A stretch of 47,649 bases of DNA from a virus. The notes beneath the pieces are model-generated. The model saw only the letters and a list, made by a program, of their open reading frames with translations, was not told the origin of the DNA and did no database searches. The position numbers and the translations under genes are program-made. This document shows, one piece after another, positions 1,375 to 32,257 of this stretch (position 1 is its first letter; each line of letters opens with the position of its first letter). Location: positions 1 to 47,649 of the IMG/VR virus record IMGVR_UViG_3300047388_000154. The stretch is one strand, 5' to 3'.

Positions 1375-2106
1375 TTAGCTGACTCCCACCCAGTAGGGCA
1401 CGGTGCTAGCCGTCCCTGGCACAGTCAGGGGTGTAGCCAGATCAGACAGGCCAGTCTGCCGAAGGGACGGCCTCGGGTTGGCGCCCTTCGCAAGACCGGC
1501 GTCCGCTGAGATGCCCGTCGCCGAAAGGAACGTCGGAGCCGTGCCGCTGTGCGTCATGACAGCCGATGCGTAGTAGGCGTCATCCGCGGGGACGAGGTAG
1601 GGCGTCGAGAAGGAGCCGGTGACGATCGTGTCCACGATGACGGAGGCCTTGATGTCGGCCGTAGACGCAACGAGTACACCGGCCTTGGTATAGAGGCCGT
1701 ACTTGAAGAGCGTCAGTGACACACCGGTCCCCGTGCAGATCATCGACATTGACGCAACTGTGTCTCCGGCACGAAGGCCTACAAGGAAGGCGTACTGCGC
1801 GCCGGAGGCCGCAAAGATCGTTCCTGTCGAGCCGAGTAGCCGGTTGAAGTTCTGTGACAGGAACCCATCAGCTACAACCGCTATCTGCGAACGGTCGCGC
1901 GTTGAGCACGTCCATGTCCCCGGAGTACCGGCGGCGACACAGACATAGACGTTTCCGTCATTCGATACGACGAAGTCGCCAACCAGGAACGATCCGGTCG
2001 AGGGGGCGCCGGAAACCGTTCCGCCCGCAAACCGCACGGCCGCCGTTGCGCCAGTGAAGCCGCCCGGACTTGCCCTACCACCGATAGTCGGAGCAATCCC
2101 CGTCAT
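1375..2106 (-). CDS. Putative tail appendage protein (beta-rich)
   Basis: A 243-residue protein with a strong ribosome binding site (GAGGAGGTGAGG) just before its ATG, lying directly upstream of the tailspike gene. The N-terminus is Gly/Ala-rich and holds a GDFVVSNDGNVYVCVAAG segment of the kind found in phage fibre attachment domains. The C-terminal half has a beta-sandwich look (AGDTVASMSM, YGLYTKAG, TPYLVPADDAYYASAV) and resembles the product at 2711-3304 in layout: a LSQNF/LSQSW start, a GTRVG-like middle and a TPY...P..D..YY stretch. I infer a paralogous receptor-binding or appendage domain. No enzymatic motif is visible. Confidence 0.7.
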   Translation of the reverse strand: MTGIAPTIGGRASPGGFTGATAAVRFAGGTVSGAPSTGSFLVGDFVVSNDGNVYVCVAAGTPGTWTCSTRDRSQIAVVADGFLSQNFNRLLGSTGTIFAASGAQYAFLVGLRAGDTVASMSMICTGTGVSLTLFKYGLYTKAGVLVASTADIKASVIVDTIVTGSFSTPYLVPADDAYYASAVMTHSGTAPTFLSATGISADAGLAKGANPRPSLRQTGLSDLATPLTVPGTASTVPYWVGVS

Positions 2107-2117
2107 GCCTCACCTCC

Positions 2118-2255
2118 TCAGCGATTCTTGTTGGCGACGTACGCCGCTTTGTCTTTTCTCGATTGGACTTTCTGACCGCGCGTCTTGCGCGCTCGCCGTG
2201 TGCGCTCCTTGAGCGACCCTGCGTGGTAGTGCGATGCTCCTACGTGGTGCGCCAT
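2118..2255 (-). CDS. Small basic protein (45 aa)
   Basis: A short open frame fills the gap between two structural-operon genes. Its ATG overlaps the upstream stop (TGATG) and its stop lies 11 bases before the next start. The product is very rich in Arg and Lys (LKERTRRARKTRGQKVQSRKDK), suggesting nucleic-acid binding or a small virion component. I do not recognise a family. The case rests on the start/stop overlap and the clean fit to the gap. Confidence 0.55.
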   Translation of the reverse strand: MAHHVGASHYHAGSLKERTRRARKTRGQKVQSRKDKAAYVANKNR

Positions 2256-2710
2256 CAGCGACCCACGCCCTTCATGCGCTTGAGTGCCTCGCCGACGCTT
2301 CGGCCTGCGAGCGAGATGCCGCTCTGCTTCGCCCGTGCGGCGAACGCTCGGCGGTCGGCCTTATCCTGCAGCCGGTCAGCCTCGGCCTCCCAGTCAGCGC
2401 TCGTGCGGAGCGTAGAGTCGTAGCCCGCGTACGCTCGAGCGAACTGCTCGGCCTGATGCTTGCCGACCTCGAAGCCGCAGAGGAAGCACCGCTCAGGGAA
2501 CGCTGTCCCTGAGCAGACGCCGCATGGCCCTTCGGCTCCCTCCCTGTCGAGGTTCTCCAGGCAGTTGATGCACTTGAAGCCCAACCGCGTGGCCTCGACG
2601 TCGTCGTCGCTCATGGCGACGTTCAGACCAGGCATCATGCGCCCGTTCTGGTGAAGCTCAACAACGCCGTGATCCTCTTCGACGAGGATCCGCTGCCACT
2701 GTCGCGCCAC
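2255..2710 (-). CDS. Cys-pair (zinc-ribbon-like) protein
   Basis: A 151-residue protein starting at a GTG that directly follows the upstream TAA. Three Cys pairs (CINC, CGVC, CFLC, residues about 48-80) suggest one or two structural zinc sites. They are followed by a charged helical C-terminus (DWEAEADRLQDKADRRAFAARAK). It sits among the appendage genes, so a structural or assembly role is possible, but no family is recognised. Confidence 0.7.
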   Translation of the reverse strand: MARQWQRILVEEDHGVVELHQNGRMMPGLNVAMSDDDVEATRLGFKCINCLENLDREGAEGPCGVCSGTAFPERCFLCGFEVGKHQAEQFARAYAGYDSTLRTSADWEAEADRLQDKADRRAFAARAKQSGISLAGRSVGEALKRMKGVGR

Positions 2711-3304
2711 TTAGTACGCTGCCAGGTAGTAGCAGACGGAGTTGCCGGTCGTGAGCGTGAGCGCAGAGCCAACGGCCGGAAGGTCGGTCTGACCTGCCCA
2801 CTCGAACGAGACGGGGGCCGCGCTCGGGAGCTTCGCATGGCTGGCACCGACGCCGCCCGTTACGCGGATCGGGGTCGGCTGTGTTGAACCCCACGTACCG
2901 TTGACGACGAAGCAGAGGTAGTAGCCGCCGTCGCTGGGGATCGTGTACGGCGTGGTGAAGGGTAGGAGGTTCGGGCCTGCGGCCCAGCTCGCCAGAGCGT
3001 TCAGGTTGCCGCTGATCGCGAGCATGTTGCCCTGAGAGTCTGCGATGCCGACGCGCACGGTGGTCGGGAGCGTCCCGGCCGCCGCAACGACATTCCGTAG
3101 CACGATGCCGGTGATCACCTGTCCGGCGCTAAAGCCGAAGAGGTCGCCGAACACCTTCTGTGTTGCGGGCGCCGTCCCCGCGGTGGCGAGCACCGGATCG
3201 AAGTTCTCGGTCTGGATACCAGAAGCCCTCCAGCTCTGCGACAGAGCGCGGGCAGCGATGATGTCGGCGGCGCTGATGCTTCCGTCTCTGTTCGCGTTGC
3301 TCAC
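2711..3304 (-). CDS. Appendage protein with dockerin-like calcium loop
   Basis: A 197-residue product starting at GTG, overlapping the upstream endonuclease stop by four bases (GTGA). Residues 3-14 (NANRDGSISAAD) fit the dockerin/EF-hand calcium loop: acidic or Asn ligands at loop positions 1, 3, 5 and 12, Gly at 6 and Ile at 8. The helix IIAARALSQSW follows. The rest is a predicted beta-sandwich (VRVGIADSQGNMLA, TPYTIPSDGGYYLCFVV), similar in layout to the gene at 1375-2106. I infer a receptor-binding or decoration protein stabilised by calcium. Only one dockerin half is present, whereas cellulosomal dockerins carry two. Confidence 0.7.
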   Translation of the reverse strand: MSNANRDGSISAADIIAARALSQSWRASGIQTENFDPVLATAGTAPATQKVFGDLFGFSAGQVITGIVLRNVVAAAGTLPTTVRVGIADSQGNMLAISGNLNALASWAAGPNLLPFTTPYTIPSDGGYYLCFVVNGTWGSTQPTPIRVTGGVGASHAKLPSAAPVSFEWAGQTDLPAVGSALTLTTGNSVCYYLAAY

Positions 3305-3831
3305 TTCTCACCTCCTGCGGTGGCGTCTCGCCACCTCTCTAGGTACTCGATTGCCACGAGCATCAAGTCCGGGCTGTCCTTGAGCTTGCCCAAGCCGTGG
3401 TTGCAGTTGTCGCACAGCAGGCCACGAAAAACCCCTGAAGCGTGGCAGTGGTCTGCAGCCAGAGAGCGCTTCTGCTCTGTGCGTGGCTTCTTGCAGATAG
3501 CACAGCATCCGCGCTGAAGCGCAAAGGCTGCGTCGTACTGCTCTTGCGTAACGCCCGTATTGCGGAACCTGTTCCTGGCGTTGTGTTTCTCTCTATTCGC
3601 TCTGTAGTAGCGTTTGCCGCGACCCTTTATGCGGTCTGGATTTCTGTCTCGCCACTCCTGGCTCTTGCTCGCTCTTGCTGATTTTTCTCCTGGCGACAGT
3701 GCTGCGTATATCTCTCGAGTGCGCTTGGAAGAGCAAGAGCGACAACGCCAGCGAAGTCCGTCGTATCTGCTGCGGTCGACTGAGAATGAATCAACTGAAA
3801 GCATGCGCTCGCAACCCGAGCAATACTTCAC
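3301..3831 (-). CDS. Endonuclease VII-type HNH homing endonuclease
   Basis: The start is a GTG overlapping the upstream stop (GTGA), giving 176 residues; a longer frame would run deep into the glycosyltransferase gene. The N-terminus has a zinc pair (CSGC, later CRSC) typical of phage HNH proteins. The C-terminal half is the endonuclease VII/HNH core: GVTQEQYDAAFALQRGC, CAIC, AADHCHASG, GLLCDNCN. Such enzymes nick or cut DNA and spread between phages as free-standing homing genes. Codon use is visibly more AT-rich than in the flanking structural genes, which supports recent acquisition. It interrupts the glycosyltransferase-appendage gene pair. Confidence 0.88.
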   Translation of the reverse strand: MKYCSGCERMLSVDSFSVDRSRYDGLRWRCRSCSSKRTREIYAALSPGEKSARASKSQEWRDRNPDRIKGRGKRYYRANREKHNARNRFRNTGVTQEQYDAAFALQRGCCAICKKPRTEQKRSLAADHCHASGVFRGLLCDNCNHGLGKLKDSPDLMLVAIEYLERWRDATAGGEK

Positions 3832-4847
3832 GTCTGTATCGCTAGGCGCCAGCGCTCTACCTCCGTTCGGAAAGTTCGGTGCTCGAGCACGTATGCGCGC
3901 GCCTCTTGCGCTCGAGCGCGCACCTCGTCGCGGTTGGCGACGGCCCACTTGATCTGCTGCATCCAGTCGCTCTCAGAGCGAACGGTGCGAGCGAACTCCT
4001 TGTCCTCCCAGTTCCAGTACGGCTCGGAGGTCTGCAGGAACGGCATTGCGCCACCCATCGCGTACTCGAGAGCCTTGAGGTCGGAGCGGTACTTCGCTAG
4101 CGGCGACGAGACGAGCGGCGATACGCCAACGTCGAGCCGTCCAAGTTCGTTCCGTAGGCCCAGGAACTTGTCAGTCCATGGAGACTGTCGGCGCGCAAAG
4201 GGCCAGCCGGGGTCGAGTCCGATGTTGACGATCTCGACGTTCGGCTGACGCGATGCCCACGACAGAGCCTTCGCCACCATGGGCGCGTCTCGGTCGTGCG
4301 AGTTGCTTGCGTACCAGCCAATGCGGAACGTCTCATCGCGTGGTGACGGCTTCGGCCAGTCGTCCGGGTCGATGCTGTTCCGACAGACGTGGACGTTGTC
4401 GTTGAGCTTGCGGTACTCCTGCTCGAGCGCACGCGTCGTGACGATGACGCCATACGAATGCTCAACGATCCAGCGATGCCCCTGCACGGACGTTGCGTTC
4501 TCGCCGCGGATGTGCTCACCCCACGACGCACGCTTCATCCACAGCTCGTCGCCGTAGTCGATGTAGTTGTCATCGACCTCAACTAGGAAGCGCTTGCCCT
4601 TGGCCTCCATCGCCATCGCGAAGAGCGCGCTCCCGTCGTCTCCTGGGAACTGCTCGATCGCCACGTCGCCGCGGAGCTGCGGGAACGACAGCTTCTGCGT
4701 CCTGGTGTCGTGCTTCACCAGAACGTCAGAAGCCGCTAGCACCTTGCCCGGCAGGTACTTCGCCGGGAGCGTGACGCGCCAGTAGCGCGTGGCCGCGGTG
4801 CCTTGGTGATAGAAAGTGCAGAGGTCGCGCTTGAGACTCAGCCTCAA
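3828..4847 (-). CDS. GT-B glycosyltransferase
   Basis: A 339-residue protein starting at TTG, overlapping the upstream stop (TTGA). The C-terminal half looks like the nucleotide-sugar-binding lobe of GT1/GT4 enzymes: RIGWYASNSHDRD, then SDLKALEYAMGGAMPFLQTSEPY, the usual Glu-containing donor site. The N-terminal half has VEVDDNY and a link region NSIDPDDWP. Such genes in phage structural operons may glycosylate virion proteins or modify host surface glycans. Its place between capsid and appendage genes suggests action on the particle, but donor and acceptor are unknown. Confidence 0.78.
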   Translation of the reverse strand: MRLSLKRDLCTFYHQGTAATRYWRVTLPAKYLPGKVLAASDVLVKHDTRTQKLSFPQLRGDVAIEQFPGDDGSALFAMAMEAKGKRFLVEVDDNYIDYGDELWMKRASWGEHIRGENATSVQGHRWIVEHSYGVIVTTRALEQEYRKLNDNVHVCRNSIDPDDWPKPSPRDETFRIGWYASNSHDRDAPMVAKALSWASRQPNVEIVNIGLDPGWPFARRQSPWTDKFLGLRNELGRLDVGVSPLVSSPLAKYRSDLKALEYAMGGAMPFLQTSEPYWNWEDKEFARTVRSESDWMQQIKWAVANRDEVRARAQEARAYVLEHRTFRTEVERWRLAIQT

Positions 4848-5398
4848 GCAGAGATCAACCCCACGACGTCCTCGTTGTCGCGCTCGATGAGCGTCTCGAG
4901 GGCGGCCTTGACGTTCTCGCGGTCGAGGTTCTCCTGCTCGTACTGCAGCACTGCCGTAGGCGATGCGCCGATCAAGTCGACGGTGTAGAGGATCTTCTCG
5001 ACAGCGTCGTCACCGACGAACTCGTCGTACTTGTCCCACGGCTTCGCCGACTTGGGCGGGCTGCAGATGACGTACTCGGTGCCGTTGGACGAAGCCTTGA
5101 GGAGCGCCTGCTCGACGAACTCCTTGTCCTCCGGCTCCCAGTTCTGGTTCTTGGCCTCCTCGTCGGTGTCGAGCATGCCGACGCGCGTGAACGGATCCTC
5201 CTCGAGGCCGATGCCCTGTCCCCAGCCTGCGAGACTCTGGACGGCCTCTCTGGCCCAGTCGGGGGCGCCGCCTGCCGGGTGGAACTGCACCGAGAGGGCG
5301 GGCTTGACCCTGATGACGGCGCCGGTCGCCGGGTGGTACTCGGTCTGCGTGTCGCGGAGGGGCATGGTCAGCCCCGGTGAACGGGAGATCAGGTACAA
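4844..5398 (-). CDS. Hypothetical protein downstream of capsid gene
   Basis: A 184-residue product. I chose a TTG start because AAGGAG lies six bases upstream and no better in-frame start follows the hairpin after the capsid gene. The sequence is acidic in its second half (GIGLEEDPF, DTDEEAKNQNWEPEDKEFVEQ) and ends in a helical, charged segment. The middle holds SSNGTEYVICSPPKSAKPWDKYDEFVGDD. No family is recognised. Its place right after the capsid gene would fit a head-completion or decoration protein, which is only an inference. Confidence 0.65.
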   Translation of the reverse strand: MYLISRSPGLTMPLRDTQTEYHPATGAVIRVKPALSVQFHPAGGAPDWAREAVQSLAGWGQGIGLEEDPFTRVGMLDTDEEAKNQNWEPEDKEFVEQALLKASSNGTEYVICSPPKSAKPWDKYDEFVGDDAVEKILYTVDLIGASPTAVLQYEQENLDRENVKAALETLIERDNEDVVGLISA

Positions 5399-13236: not shown

Positions 13237-13310
13237 GGGGGCGGAAGGGACTCGAACCCTCTGATGCTGGGATCACAACCCAGGGCCTCGACCACTTCGG
13301 CATCCGTCCC
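13237..13310 (-). tRNA. tRNA-His (GTG)
   Basis: It folds as a cloverleaf. The acceptor is GGGACGG with CCGCCCC (one A-C mismatch), the D stem GCC/GGC, the anticodon arm CTGGG-TTGTGAT-CCCAG with anticodon GTG, a 5-base variable loop, and the T arm GAGGG-TTCGAGT-CCCTT. The discriminator is C, as expected for histidine. The encoded -1 base is C, not G, so the essential G-1 would have to be added or supplied differently. No CCA is encoded. Confidence 0.88.
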
Positions 13311-13426
13311 GCTTGTGCGCCGCGGCCGGCGCTAAGGGTGTTCCCTCGCGCGTCGAAAGGCGCGGTCGTCGGGAACGATGGTGGAGCGCACCACCCGTCG
13401 CGACGGGTAGAGATGATGCGCCCCGA

Positions 13427-13498
13427 TAGCGGAAGCGGGAATCGAACCCGCGACATTCGGCTTATGAGGCCGCTCAGCTACCACTGCTGCATTCCGCT
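13427..13498 (-). tRNA. tRNA with CAT anticodon (Met or Ile2)
   Basis: The acceptor AGCGGAA/TTCCGCT pairs perfectly. The D stem is CAGC/GCTG, the anticodon loop is CTCATAA, the T arm is GCGGG-TTCGATT-CCCGC, and the discriminator is A. The A-U first pair and the absence of three G-C pairs below the anticodon loop argue against an initiator. Elongator Met and lysidine-modified Ile2 cannot be told apart here. CCA is not encoded. Confidence 0.85.
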
Positions 13499-13500
13499 AT

Positions 13501-20858: not shown

Positions 20859-21188
20859 TCATAGGTTGCGATGTGATGGCCGAGGACGCGGTGGGATCGC
20901 ATAGGGGTCAAGGTCGGCGATCGTTGGCAGCTCAATCCCGGCCTTCATCAACGCTTCGAGATCGTCTGTCCTGATGGCGCCCTTTCCCTTGCAGGTCGGG
21001 CAGCCGCTAGCGCGCGTGGTTACGCCGACATCCTCCGATGATCCACGGAGCTGTCCCCCGCTCACGACAATGGCTCCTCCGTCGTTGCGTAGCGCTCCGT
21101 TTGCCTCGCAATCAGGACAGCGGACGTAGTCGATGCGTACGAACCCATGCTTGTGGCGGGGGCCGTTTGCTGGCTTACGTCCCGCCAT
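20859..21188 (-). CDS. Zinc-finger protein, DnaJ-like Cys repeats (109 aa)
   Basis: YVRCPDCEANGAL and GCPTCKGKGAIR form a CxxCxxxG-type pair set like the DnaJ central zinc domain, separated by about 35 residues. No J domain is present. Phages often carry such stand-alone modules. It is the second gene of the operon led by the nuclease/ubiquitin-like fusion. Confidence 0.7.
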   Translation of the reverse strand: MAGRKPANGPRHKHGFVRIDYVRCPDCEANGALRNDGGAIVVSGGQLRGSSEDVGVTTRASGCPTCKGKGAIRTDDLEALMKAGIELPTIADLDPYAIPPRPRPSHRNL

Positions 21189-21233
21189 CGTAGCCCTCGT
21201 CGCGCAGGCGCCTGAGGTCCTGGCTATGACTTA

Positions 21234-21827
21234 TCAGATTGCTTTGACATTGAAGATGGTCCCGCTCTTCTTGACTTCGACGGACTGACCCGCGACGAGC
21301 GTGCCTTCCTTCGGCTCGTGGGCCTTCCGATAGCTCACAGTGAAGAGGGTGTTTGCATAGGGCGGCGTCGGATACGCCAACTTCGTCACTTCGTCGAACG
21401 AGACATCCTTGTCATGGACGATTTTCTCTTCGGCGTTGACGATGATCGTGGGGACGTCACCGTCGCACACGACCTCCGGGCACCACTCGCGTAGCTCCTG
21501 CGTAACCCAAAACCACTCCCCAGAGAGGCGAGATAGAGCGAAGAACTCATGCAGCGCTCGCTCAAGCCACATGCCGCCGCTGTAGGTAGCGCGGACGGTA
21601 AGTCTCTGATGGTTTCCGATTTGGAGGGACTTAAGGCGACTCTGGACGCCTCTGCGCGTGGAGTGACCGATCTTCACAGGGCCTCCATCCAGCGCCTGAA
21701 TCACGTAGACGACTTCCTTGTCGTCCTCCTTCGCGCGAGGCAAACGCAGAAGCAAGTCGGCGACTGACTCAGGCTGGGCTAGTGGCCTAGCGTGGCGTCT
21801 GGGTGGGTTTCGTGAGCCTCGTGGCAT
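21234..21827 (-). CDS. GIY-YIG (T5orf172/Mug113) nuclease fused to ubiquitin-like domain
   Basis: A 197-residue protein with a basic N-terminus. Residues about 40-107 match the Mug113/T5orf172 branch of GIY-YIG nucleases: VVYVIQALDGGPVKIGHS, RLKSLQIGN, MWLERALHEFF with the conserved Glu, and GEWFW. Residues about 126-197 match the bacterial multiubiquitin-type ubiquitin-like domain: PTIIVNAEEKIVHDKDVSF, DEVTKLAYPTPP, TLFTVSYRKA, EGTLVAGQSVEV and a final GTIFNVKAI. In bacteria that domain occurs in E1/E2/JAB conjugation operons; here no such enzyme is encoded and the C-terminus has no di-Gly. It is first in its operon, facing the 22.1 kb early promoter region. Confidence 0.78.
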   Translation of the reverse strand: MPRGSRNPPRRHARPLAQPESVADLLLRLPRAKEDDKEVVYVIQALDGGPVKIGHSTRRGVQSRLKSLQIGNHQRLTVRATYSGGMWLERALHEFFALSRLSGEWFWVTQELREWCPEVVCDGDVPTIIVNAEEKIVHDKDVSFDEVTKLAYPTPPYANTLFTVSYRKAHEPKEGTLVAGQSVEVKKSGTIFNVKAI

Positions 21828-22139
21828 GCAGATAGTGCCCGACCTAGCTCTAGGGCAATGCCCGCGCTAAGAGAGGAGGGTGGTGGGGTTAAGCACCTGA
21901 AGGAGTCAAACGCTCTTTCTCTATAGCAATGTGACGCAAGCCTAAGGCTTCAGTCCTTGCGCCGTCCGTTAAGCATCCCGCGCCCGAGGCGTCACATAGC
22001 TTGTATGACAAGCCCCAATCGCAGAAATCGTTCAAGGGACTGAACGCCCGTCCGATAGAGATGTTACAGTCCCAGAGACGCCTCGGAGTGAGTCCCCTTC
22101 TCCGAGGCAACAATCCCCCCGCACCAGGAGGAACAATCC
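21828..22139. promoter_or_regulatory. Divergent early control region with paired operators
   Basis: GCAATGTGACGC at 21926-21937 and, in opposite orientation, GCTATGTGACGC at 21989-22000 form an inverted pair about 50 bases apart. The palindrome AAGCCT-A-AGGCTT lies between them at 21938-21950. The motif recurs upstream of the integrase. On the minus strand TGCTATAGA, an extended -10-like element, overlaps the first site. A perfect 9-bp hairpin GCCTCGGAG/CTCCGAGGC spans 22080-22108, and the RBS element CCCGCACCAGGAGGAA is at 22118-22133. Confidence 0.6.
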
Positions 22140-22529
22140 ATGTCAGCACTCGCGGAAGCGCCGCTACGGCGACGCGCGCTCGAACGCTCCGGCATGACGC
22201 CTGAGCAGGAGCTGGAGCTGCTCATCCAGGAGCAGGCGGCCGACGACACCTACTTCGTGCGCAAGGCTGCGGGCGAGCGCCAGCTCGACGGCGGCGTCTC
22301 CGAGCTGGTCGGCGTCACGTACGACTTCGACGCCTTCGACCCCGAGGCCCAGGGCGAGGTCATCAGCTACCTGCCCCGCGAGGAGGACAGCCTCTTCTCG
22401 AGCCACGTCAAGCACGGCCTCAGGAGCACCTACACGAACCTCAAGTGCAAGTGCGTCGCCTGCCGAGCCGCCGAGTCCGCGTACCAGCGCGAGCGGCGGG
22501 CGGCGGCGAAGGCGAGGGCTGAGGCGTGA
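22140..22529 (+). CDS. Early protein with C-terminal Cys/Arg module (129 aa)
   Basis: The start is set by the conserved RBS element. The N-terminal part is helical and acidic (GMTPEQELELLIQEQAADD). The C-terminus KHGLRSTYTNLKCKCVACRAAESAYQRERR is a module seen in many actinophage and HNH-associated proteins, with Cys residues for zinc and an Arg-rich helix for nucleic acid. It is the first gene of the replication block. Confidence 0.7.
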   Translation: MSALAEAPLRRRALERSGMTPEQELELLIQEQAADDTYFVRKAAGERQLDGGVSELVGVTYDFDAFDPEAQGEVISYLPREEDSLFSSHVKHGLRSTYTNLKCKCVACRAAESAYQRERRAAAKARAEA

Positions 22530-23107
22530 TCGAGATCAAGAGCATCGGCGGCACCGTGCTGTACGTCGCGCAGGACGCGAATGATGTGCGCTCGGCCGTG
22601 GAAGAGGCCGTCGCCAAGCGGGCGAACCTGGTCGGGGCGAACCTGCGCGGGGCGTACCTGGGCGGGGCGAACCTGCGCGGGGCGTACCTGGACGGGGCGA
22701 ACCTGCGCGGGGCGTACCTGCGCGGGGCGAACCTGCGCGGGGCGTACCTGGGCGGGGCGAACCTGGACGGGGCGAACCTGGACGGGGAGCTGTGGAGTGA
22801 AGTAGCCGTCCTCCTACGTACCGCTATCACGTCCATGAACGACTCCGGCCGCCACTGGATTCAGGGCACGGAGAGGAAAGAGCTGGAGGACGGCAGCATC
22901 GCCTTCTGCTCGATCGGGTCGGTGTACGCCCAGACGTCTCAGGCGGGCACGACTCGGGCAATCGCCATCTGGCTTCTCAACTCCGTGGCCGCCGGGTCGA
23001 TCGTCGACTTCAACGATCACAAGAGCACGACCTGGGAAGACGTCAAAGCCGTCTTCGCTGTCGCCATCAAGCATGCCGAGCGGTTTGCCTCGAAGGCGTC
23101 GGCATGA
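22526..23107 (+). CDS. Pentapeptide-repeat protein fused to DUF6197-like domain
   Basis: A GTG start overlaps the upstream stop. Residues about 33-87 are eleven perfect A(N/Y)LxG pentapeptides, the right-handed quadrilateral helix that in Qnr/MfpA proteins mimics DNA; eleven units make fewer than three turns. The C-terminal 105 residues (DSGRHWIQGTERKEL, IAFCSIGSVYA, AGSIVDFNDHKSTTWEDVKAVFAVAIKHAE) resemble DUF6197, an actinobacterial/phage domain with a CaxGA and W/FND pattern. The combination is unusual. A role against gyrase or in regulation is possible but not shown. Confidence 0.75.
   Translation: MIEIKSIGGTVLYVAQDANDVRSAVEEAVAKRANLVGANLRGAYLGGANLRGAYLDGANLRGAYLRGANLRGAYLGGANLDGANLDGELWSEVAVLLRTAITSMNDSGRHWIQGTERKELEDGSIAFCSIGSVYAQTSQAGTTRAIAIWLLNSVAAGSIVDFNDHKSTTWEDVKAVFAVAIKHAERFASKASA
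22622..22786 (+). repeat. Eleven tandem 15-bp repeats within the pentapeptide gene
   Basis: Each unit is a variant of GCGAACCTGCGCGGG, with changes nearly confined to codons 2 and 4. The high DNA identity points to recent unit expansion rather than old divergence. Confidence 0.85.
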
Positions 23108-28094: not shown

Positions 28095-30013
28095 GCGCGA
28101 ACGATTACGTCGTCATCGACCTCGAGACAACGGGGAAGAACCCACTCCGCGACGAGCTGTTGTGCGTCGGTATCGGCGAAAAGGTCTACCCCGCTGAGGA
28201 GGGCCGGAAGATGGCCCGCCGTCTGATGGTTCGGCCTGGGACGACGATCGTCTGCGCGACGAACTTCGATCTGCGTTGGCTCATGCTCGAGGGCGCGAAG
28301 CTCGGCAAGAACGTGTCCTTCCACGACACGAAGGTGCTCGGTTGGATGCTTGACGGGACGCAACAACTAGACCTCGAATCACTGACTCAGAGGTACTGCG
28401 GCTACACGCCCGTCAAGGCGCTCAAGCAGCGTGCGGGGCGGGTCATGTTCGACCGCATGGCCAGCTCTCTCGGGGTCGAGGAGCTGGTGCCGATCGAGGA
28501 GGCGCCTTGGGACGAGCTGTCGGCCTACAACCGCTCAGACCTCAAGGCCGAGGCCGACCTCTACGAGGCCCTTCGCGCAGAGCTGAAGAGGACGGGGCAG
28601 TGGTCGCACTTCCTGAAGGAAGAGGCTCCGTTTTCTCGTCTCCTGGTCGAAGTCGAGGCCGCGGGAATGCCATTCGATCGCGAGGCCGCCGTCGAGATGC
28701 TCACCGATACGGACGGCGAGATGTCGCGGCTCAAGCAGCAGCTCGTCGAGATGACCGGCGCCCCGAACTTCAATCCCGGCAGCGGCGAGCAGGTCGCGCG
28801 CTTCCTCTACACCGAAGTGTGGGAACAAGATGTGCGCTTCCCGATTCCCAGGATTCTGGGAATGTCGAAGGAGGACAAGCGCGCGGCCGTCGAGCGCATA
28901 GCGCCGCCGCGTGTGCGCGTGACGAAGGTTGGCCGCGACTACGCGTACGGCGTGCTGCTGCTCGACGGTATGGGCCTGGCGCCGCCGAAGCGTGACAAGA
29001 AGCAGAAGACACCTCGGCCTTCGGTCAGCTCGAAGAAGCTGATGGTGCTCTACGGCAGCAACCCGTGGGTCGCCGGCTACATCGAGTGGCGCAAACACCA
29101 GAAGCTCGCGGGCTACCTGCGCGACTGGATCGAGCGCGTTCACGAGGGCAAGCTGTACGGGCGCTTCGATCAGTCGGGTACGGCCACTGGGCGGCTGGCT
29201 GCGCGAGAGCCGAACCTGCAGCAAGTGGCCAAGGAGAGCGGCGTCCGTGGCCTCTTCCGCGGGCCTCTATTCATCGGCGATTACGGCGGCCTTGAGGTGA
29301 GGATCAGTGCGCACTTCAGCCGCGACCCCGTGATGGTGGAGATCTTCGCTTCAGGCGGCGACCTCTACGGCACGTTGGCGGCCGAGGCATGGGGCGGCGA
29401 GCCGACGAAGGAGAACCCGAACCGCGCGCTGATGAAGGTCGTCATGCTAGGCAGCCAGTACGGCGCTGCGGGCGAGACGCTTTCAATGGTCATGTCCCTC
29501 GCAGGCATTCCGACGACTCCAGCCGAGGCCGACGGCTTCCTGCGCGACCTGAAGAAGACGCTGCCGCGCATGTTCGAGTGGCGGCAGGAGGTCATCGCGC
29601 AGGCCGAGAAGGACGGCTACGTCGAGACGCTCGCTGGTCGGCGACGTCAGCTCGTCGGCATTAAGAGCGCCGATTGGCAGAAGAAGGGGACGGCCGAGCG
29701 GCAAGCCGTCAGCACGAAGGTGCAGGGGTCGGCGGCCGACATCGTGCGGCGCGCGATGCTGGCTGCGCGCCAGGCCGTCGACCCGGTGGTTGCCCGCATG
29801 TGTCTACAAGTTCACGATGAGCTGCTTTGGGTCAGAGGGCCGGAGTGGTGTGAGGAAGCTGCAACAGAGCTGACCCACCTCTGTGAAACGGCTCACGGGT
29901 TCGATCTCACTGTGCCGCTGACGTTCGAGTCCAAGGTTGCAGAGAGCTGGGGCGAGAAGGGCGCAACCCCAGCGCACGCGGGCGCCTACGAGCAGCTCCA
30001 GGAGATCGTGTGA
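28091..30013 (+). CDS. polA: Family A DNA polymerase with 3'-5' exonuclease, CTG start
   Basis: A 640-residue replicative polymerase. The exonuclease motifs are YVVIDLETTG (I), ATNFDLRWL (II) and YNRSDLKAEADLY (III). The polymerase motifs are DYGGLEVRISAHF (A), RALMKVVMLGSQYG (B) and LQVHDELLWV (C). Exo motif I begins within the first ten residues. No ATG, GTG or TTG precedes it in frame; the first such codon, TTG at 28160, would delete it. A CTG that overlaps the upstream stop (CTGA), seven bases after GGAG, is the best start. There is no 5'-nuclease domain. Confidence 0.9.
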   Translation: MSANDYVVIDLETTGKNPLRDELLCVGIGEKVYPAEEGRKMARRLMVRPGTTIVCATNFDLRWLMLEGAKLGKNVSFHDTKVLGWMLDGTQQLDLESLTQRYCGYTPVKALKQRAGRVMFDRMASSLGVEELVPIEEAPWDELSAYNRSDLKAEADLYEALRAELKRTGQWSHFLKEEAPFSRLLVEVEAAGMPFDREAAVEMLTDTDGEMSRLKQQLVEMTGAPNFNPGSGEQVARFLYTEVWEQDVRFPIPRILGMSKEDKRAAVERIAPPRVRVTKVGRDYAYGVLLLDGMGLAPPKRDKKQKTPRPSVSSKKLMVLYGSNPWVAGYIEWRKHQKLAGYLRDWIERVHEGKLYGRFDQSGTATGRLAAREPNLQQVAKESGVRGLFRGPLFIGDYGGLEVRISAHFSRDPVMVEIFASGGDLYGTLAAEAWGGEPTKENPNRALMKVVMLGSQYGAAGETLSMVMSLAGIPTTPAEADGFLRDLKKTLPRMFEWRQEVIAQAEKDGYVETLAGRRRQLVGIKSADWQKKGTAERQAVSTKVQGSAADIVRRAMLAARQAVDPVVARMCLQVHDELLWVRGPEWCEEAATELTHLCETAHGFDLTVPLTFESKVAESWGEKGATPAHAGAYEQLQEIV

Positions 30014-31669: not shown

Positions 31670-32257
31670 GTGTTCGACCTCAAGCTTACCTGGAAGCGGC
31701 TGCCGGATCCGCCGGAGCCGCGCCTCCTCAACCTCGACGTCGAGAACGGGCCTAAATGGGGCTGGGGGCCGGGAGGCTACACGTACTCCGGCGTCTTCTG
31801 CATCGCACGCAAGTGGGTAGGAGCACCGGAGAAGACGGTCACCTCGGTGCTAATCGACTGGCGACAGGACGACGAGTCCGTGCGCCAGCTCCTCGCGCCC
31901 GTGTACGCCGACATCGCGGAGGCTGACGGCTTCTTGGGCCACAACTTCAGCCACGACACGGGGCTGCTCGTCGGCCTCGCGAAGGACTTCGGCATTAAGC
32001 TCCCGGACATGGACAAGCAGCTCGTAGACACAATGCGTTCCGTGCCGCCCTCATCGGGCGCCATGCGTTCGCTCGAGGCCCTGTGCGAGCAGTTCGGGCT
32101 TGGCGACAAGCCGCACATCAACAACTACACCTGGGTCGACGCCTGGATCCGGTGGAAGCCCGAGGCGCTCGCGATCGTGCGTAACCGCTGCGAGATGGAC
32201 GTCATCCTTACGGAGCGGCTGTACCGCAAAGAGCAAGAGCTGGGGTGGCTGGCGTGA
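31670..32257 (+). CDS. DnaQ-like (DEDD) exonuclease
   Basis: A GTG start directly follows the upstream stop and gives 195 residues. The RNase H-fold exonuclease motifs are LLNLDVENGP (I), FLGHNFSHDTGLL (II) and RNRCEMDVILTERLY (III). The active acids Asp/Glu, Asp and Asp are all present. It has no polymerase domain. Since the family A polymerase already has a proofreading domain, this may serve recombination, RNA-primer removal or turnover. Confidence 0.8.
   Translation: MFDLKLTWKRLPDPPEPRLLNLDVENGPKWGWGPGGYTYSGVFCIARKWVGAPEKTVTSVLIDWRQDDESVRQLLAPVYADIAEADGFLGHNFSHDTGLLVGLAKDFGIKLPDMDKQLVDTMRSVPPSSGAMRSLEALCEQFGLGDKPHINNYTWVDAWIRWKPEALAIVRNRCEMDVILTERLYRKEQELGWLA

Follow-up and report, generated by a model that had tools for sequence, protein, structure and literature searches.

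The viral DNA considered here (IMG/VR record IMGVR_UViG_3300047388_000154, positions 1–47,649, with this 47,649-nucleotide stretch referred to below as the window) carries on its minus strand, at 21234..21827, a gene for a 197-aa protein, P0001, in which a GIY-YIG nuclease domain is fused to a ubiquitin-like (Ubl) domain of the Multi_ubiq family. From the DNA left at the 3' end of the gene, the Ubl domain can be shown to have been copied from a bacterial Ubl–E1(DUF6791–ThiF)–DUF6527 operon that was truncated after about 21 codons of E1, and this scar both reveals the source of the domain and names the host components concerned, an E1 with DUF6791 and ThiF domains and a DUF6527 protein. The Multi_ubiq domain, its operons (type 6e, PMC1779556) and GIY-YIG nucleases are all known already; the GIY-YIG–Ubl combination was not found in 55 loci, in 50,697 phage records searched by tblastn or in our scans of IMG/VR, and P0001 is the one sequence of the fusion that we have.

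The open reading frame matched the program-made list and its translation exactly. Its location on the minus strand had been left unstated in the original prediction. Translation would begin at the ATG at 21827 and ends at the TGA at 21236–21234; this start was picked on length, and a simple gene caller favoured a TTG at 21743. Both halves of the gene show the codon-position G+C pattern of coding genes. No match to P0001 was found in NCBIfam, and the surrounding DNA showed neither a sigma-70-like promoter nor a terminator.

The nuclease domain occupies residues about 38–112 (21492..21716, minus strand) and is of the MUG113/T5orf172 type, with matches to PHROG families in the GIY-YIG region. The expectation that residues about 40–107 are GIY-YIG was borne out by a Pfam MUG113 match at residues 51–110 (E 1.5e-7; 32.3 bits against a curated cut-off of 22.3), and in an alignment of P0001 with four phage and plasmid relatives Y41, K52-I53-G54, R64, E89, H93 and G103-E104-W105-F106 were invariant, so that P0001 has both the family profile and the conserved active-site residues of the GIY-YIG superfamily. 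As the active-site columns are conserved in every aligned sequence, DNA cleavage by this half of the protein is plausible. Its identity rests on sequence, as the AlphaFold2 model of the nuclease half, made with no alignment for it, is mostly at pLDDT 33–48. The short, basic stretch at residues 1–36 was also modelled with low confidence, and no DNA-binding domain was recognised in P0001 by Pfam or PHROGs.

The Ubl domain covers residues 125–197 (21237..21455, minus strand) and ends FNVKAI with no T-D-K-S tail. Residues about 126–197 had been read as multiubiquitin-type from their motif pattern, and this agrees with the match to Pfam Multi_ubiq (PF14452) at residues 127–195 (E 1e-14; 54.9 bits, cut-off 24.5); nothing else in the record matches PF14452. 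The structure prediction that had been suggested as a check on the fold, made with AlphaFold2 from an alignment of 18 Ubl domains, returned the strand–helix order of a beta-grasp at pLDDT ~95, and the conserved core residues of the family are unbroken in the alignment. A profile score above the curated cut-off together with this predicted beta-grasp fold places the domain in the Multi_ubiq family. The closest solved structure is 9cd2 (chain 9cd2_A; Z 13.6, 1.7 Å over 72 residues), with the next entry at Z 8.5. As far as their entries describe them, the solved multi-ubiquitin proteins are 9cd2 from E. coli ZDHYS365, 9d59 and 9d5a from Citrobacter, and 9d5b and 8u38 from Methylobacterium (Gong et al. 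2025, cited in PMC13373217). P0001 shares their fold and is closest to the C-terminal domain of 9cd2; however, 9cd2, 9d5a and 9d5b are on the same description multi-domain, bacterial proteins, whereas P0001 has a single such domain on a phage nuclease.

Relatives of the Ubl domain on bacterial plasmids and genomes lie in operons with the order Ubl–E1 (DUF6791 + ThiF)–DUF6527. These correspond to the type 6e polyUbl operons of Iyer, Burroughs and Aravind 2006 (PMC1779556), which include a variant where an uncharacterised domain replaces JAB on the E1, and we infer that DUF6791 is the 'domain X' and DUF6527 the metal-binding protein 'Y' of that work. Our first set consisted of 29 operon-type loci (L002–L006, L008 and L025–L047: five from plasmids, 23 from genomes and one, L008, from a viral contig). 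The E1 gene is directly 3' of the Ubl gene in all 29. In 28 of them its ATG falls within the F-[ND]-V codons, so that the two genes overlap by exactly 26 nt, and 28 of the 29 Ubl proteins end in Ser, mostly as T-[DN]-[KR]-S. The overlap is thus nearly universal in this operon type, so that neither the Ubl tail nor the E1 N-terminus is free to vary independently of the other. The Ser endings put in context the remark in the original prediction that the P0001 C-terminus lacks di-Gly, which is true but misleading, since the operon-type relatives we collected have no terminal Gly-Gly either.

Multi_ubiq matches above the cut-off were found in 11 of 396 sampled Actinomycetota genomes (~3%) and in 14 of 400 sampled Chloroflexota genomes. 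These draws provided 26 further bacterial loci; in the ~1.5 kb inspected at each, 22 have an E1-like gene and none has a GIY-YIG domain. The survey of other genomes that had been proposed therefore had two outcomes: a linked E1 gene was the rule (29/29 and 22/26 loci, respectively), and the GIY-YIG–Ubl fusion was absent from all 55 loci, of which L008 is the only one on a viral contig. The L008 contig (IMGVR_UViG_3300021477_000244), which is 20.6 kb long and classified as viral, has a full Ubl–E1–DUF6527 operon at 1740–3812 with an integrase-like gene close by, and the operon is probably part of a mobile element such as a prophage. An anti-phage role for this operon type is not established in the literature we found.

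The P0001 locus retains the E1 start overlap of these operons in its DNA. The scar of the E1 gene lies at 21187..21250 (minus strand) with its start ATG at 21250–21248, within the F-N-V codons of the Ubl domain, and can be followed to about codon 21; read in the frame from 21237 it translates as LISHSQDLRRLRDEGYD. Across the Ubl/E1 junction the window has TTCAATGTCAAAGCAATCTGATAAGTCATAGCCAGGACCTCAGGCGCCTGCGCGACGAGGGCTACGAT where the Rhizobium locus L006 has TTCAATGTCTCAGCAACTGATAAGTCTTAGTCCCGACCTCGCGCGCCTGCGCGACGAAGGGTACGAG, and blastn of the two over this junction gave E 4.7e-16. We scored the first 16 residues of the scar with a 16-column profile built from 25 E1 leaders and obtained 43.0 bits, compared with 9.3 for the second-best site in the window and 15.2 for the best of 30 shuffled windows; genuine E1 leaders score 31–51 bits by leave-one-out, so the scar, which sits at the very position that the operons predict, falls inside their range. 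Similarity to E1 ends after codon 21, by which point the next phage gene has already started. This gene (20859..21188, minus strand) has its ATG at the end of the scar and its first ~16 codons are derived from the insert described below.

The end of the Ubl reading frame was changed by one extra base near 21238, outside any homopolymer run, which shifts the frame so that P0001 ends FNVKAI and not in a T-D-K-S-like tail, and leaves the E1 leader 1 nt out of register with its own ATG. E1 enzymes adenylate the C-terminal carboxylate of their Ubl, and because of this the tailless Ubl is unlikely to be activated or conjugated; P0001 as read is probably not conjugatable. In locus L079 the E1 gene does not overlap the Ubl gene and the Ubl still ends TKTDKS, which suggests that loss of the tail should matter and that the tail seems to be conserved independently of the overlap. 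With so little decay visible in the E1 scar, the Ubl frame may be open simply because the capture is recent, and its openness need not reflect selection. The position of the frame shift in the tail is likewise a weak sign of selection, as an indel anywhere else would destroy the gene. We do not claim selection for keeping the E1 leader in the two scars described here, since the 26-nt overlap alone would explain the presence of E1 codons in any Ubl capture.

Around P0001 the window is phage DNA, encoding a terminase, portal, major head and tail proteins, an integrase, family-A DNA polymerase, exonuclease and primase. Relatives of the exonuclease and of a DUF932 protein are mostly found in actinophages, and an actinobacterial host is likely. 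A sister phage, L048, is collinear with the window on both sides of the P0001 locus with about 73–94% DNA identity over most aligned blocks, and lacks a ~730-bp block (roughly 21143..21870) at what is an empty site as is typical of homing-endonuclease genes. The G+C content of the insert is 0.598 compared with 0.648 for the whole window, neither PF14452 nor MUG113 was found in the L048 record, and L048 has at 3098–3325 a homologue of the next phage gene without the insert-derived N-terminus. P0001 is thus a phage accessory gene in a single inserted block that heads a leftward gene cluster. As originally predicted, conjugation enzymes are missing, with no match to ThiF, Prok-JAB, DUF6527 or DUF6791 in the 47.6-kb record, which may itself be a fragment, and on these grounds we ruled out a stolen system with a functional phage E1. 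The P0001 locus shares with type 6e operons the Multi_ubiq beta-grasp domain and the E1 start overlap, but has no adjacent E1, no DUF6527 or JAB partner gene and no Ser-ending tail, and its Ubl is nuclease-fused and phage-borne. P0001 also recalls the lambda/T1 tail-assembly protein TAPI, another phage protein that contains a ubiquitin-like domain (PMC1779556), but that domain is ThiS/MoaD-like and found among tail genes with a JAB partner, a context unrelated to that of P0001.

A second viral case was found in L009 (IMGVR_UViG_3300031885_000005, 4536–5225), a 230-aa protein with a C-terminal Multi_ubiq domain ending TPTNKS and an N-terminal domain of ~150 aa unrelated to that of P0001. The viral contig that encodes it is 77.6 kb long, is unrelated to the window phage and also carries genes for a UvsX-like recombinase and a primase; neither ThiF nor DUF6791 was found in the record. 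L009 also has an E1 scar: its ATG gives the same 26-nt overlap, the leader reads LINRSSILKKL, and the next gene, which is that of the UvsX-like recombinase, begins within the scar. The P0001 and L009 Ubl domains are placed apart in our tree, albeit with weak support, and these comparisons suggest that capture of the Ubl without its enzymes happened at least twice. Other searches of viral sequences added no further cases. Our IMG/VR scans require short exact peptide or DNA matches, which diverged phage Ubl domains may escape; the scan with full P0001 gave 13 pattern matches and zero relatives, and those with other Ubl patterns recovered only L008 and L009, with 12 of the 14 pattern matches in one scan having no Ubl or E1. 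A tblastn search of 50,697 phage records gave no match to a Ubl domain or to the L009 protein, and matches to P0001 were essentially within the nuclease half. In the literature covered, which was incomplete, we found no report of a phage-borne Multi_ubiq domain or of a phage mimic of Ubl conjugation.

Conjugation of ubiquitin-like proteins is emerging as a branch of bacterial immunity, and the reading of P0001 that we tentatively prefer, at rather less than even confidence, is that it is a dead-end mimic that jams the host Ubl pathway, holds the nuclease there, or does both. The Ubl half would still dock on its old partners and, having no tail, would be able to do so without being activated or conjugated; during infection it might then bind a Ubl partner, whether the host E1 or a different one, and jam the pathway, and/or keep the nuclease at assemblies of the pathway, with protection of the phage as the outcome. 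We favour this because what was captured is the component that interacts with the E1, because L009 shows the same kind of capture in another phage, and because the ICP1 Odn protein is a phage GIY-YIG-type nuclease aimed by an opponent-derived domain (PMC8263062); the presence of Multi_ubiq loci in ~3% of sampled genomes from the likely host phylum also counts in its favour. Counted against it are that a decoy needs no nuclease, and that there is a single fusion sequence with a scarcely decayed scar. Odn (Gp88) is a chimeric T5orf172 origin-directed nuclease and, like P0001, joins a phage GIY-YIG-superfamily nuclease domain to one acquired from an opponent, but in Odn the acquired part is an N-terminal, DNA-binding RepA_N domain with a proven target, whereas in P0001 it is a C-terminal Ubl for which a target is only proposed.

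The roles originally suggested were hijack, decoy, marking and a simple interaction module. The operon origin and the lost tail together narrow these by disfavouring covalent marking, and leave as the principal competitor to a docking mimic an explanation that we regard as nearly as likely, in which a mobile phage GIY-YIG nuclease has recently recombined with a Ubl–E1 operon and the gene persists through its nuclease, with the Ubl as a stabilising or idle folded tail. An E1 scar so little decayed is what a recent and possibly functionless capture would leave, and MUG113/T5orf172 domains occur within other phage proteins such as Mx8 p19, while T5orf172 genes are known to swap partner domains (PMC10448857) and the insertion is absent from the sister phage in the manner of a homing gene. 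P0001 matches the free-standing, homing-type phage T5orf172/GIY-YIG genes (PMC10448857) in nuclease class and in occupying a site where a sister phage has no insert, but their Zn-finger DNA-binding domains were not found in P0001, which has the Ubl instead. The want of any recognised DNA-binding domain argues against this explanation, as do the intact Ubl core residues, the similar orphan Ubl kept by the L009 phage, and the absence of the fusion from all examined bacterial loci.

It is also conceivable, though we think it unlikely, that the nuclease attacks the DNA of rival phages or plasmids and that the Ubl is a self-assembly or docking module unrelated to host conjugation. Some solved bacterial multi-ubiquitin proteins form filaments, judging by their PDB titles (9d59 and 9d5b), Odn is a phage GIY-YIG nuclease directed at a competing element (PMC8263062), and PADLOC gives a weak candidate-defence hit (PDC-S57, E 0.001) within the nuclease half; but the filament formers, from the same entries, carry several Ubl domains where P0001 has one, and P0001 has no recognisable DNA-targeting domain. 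Still less probable is that the host E1 activates the Ubl after all, with the result that the nuclease becomes linked to host proteins or, as a substrate, drains the pathway. This requires a real tail obscured by a base error, or +1 frameshifting at ATC-TGA to read ...AI-DKS, and while skipping the T of TGA does restore D-K-S-stop and L009 has an intact TNKS tail, the protein as read ends KAI where 28 of 29 relatives end in Ser, tRNA-Ile would re-pair poorly after a +1 slip, and no homopolymer surrounds the extra base. Finally, a single known copy on a metagenomic contig could reflect a bacterial Ubl operon joined to phage sequence during assembly, but we consider this very improbable given that both flanks are phage sequence in common with L048, the fusion is in frame and in mid-contig, and L009 provides an independent second case.

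Were P0001 to bind E1, it would represent a phage counter-measure against bacterial ubiquitin-like signalling and provide a probe for the role of the uncharacterised Ubl–E1 operons. The wider proposition that phages repeatedly steal the Ubl modifier without its enzymes and fuse it to effectors of their own, as mimics that jam or redirect a bacterial Ubl immune pathway, is one that we would put forward as possible but doubtful.

Several other features of the window may be recorded here. The family-A DNA polymerase (28211–30013, plus strand) and a separate exonuclease-like protein (31670–32257, plus strand) match different parts of phrog_17, as if one polymerase had been split and the order of its parts swapped. 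A pentapeptide-repeat protein with a DUF6197 C-terminal part is encoded at 22526–23107 (plus strand), and the L048 version has a longer stretch of repeats. ARAGORN identified tRNA genes for His (GTG) and Met (CAT) at 13237–13499 (minus strand), with only the second above the Rfam gathering score, and a glycosyltransferase-like gene (phrog_7162; 3831–4847, minus strand) is located beside the head gene region.
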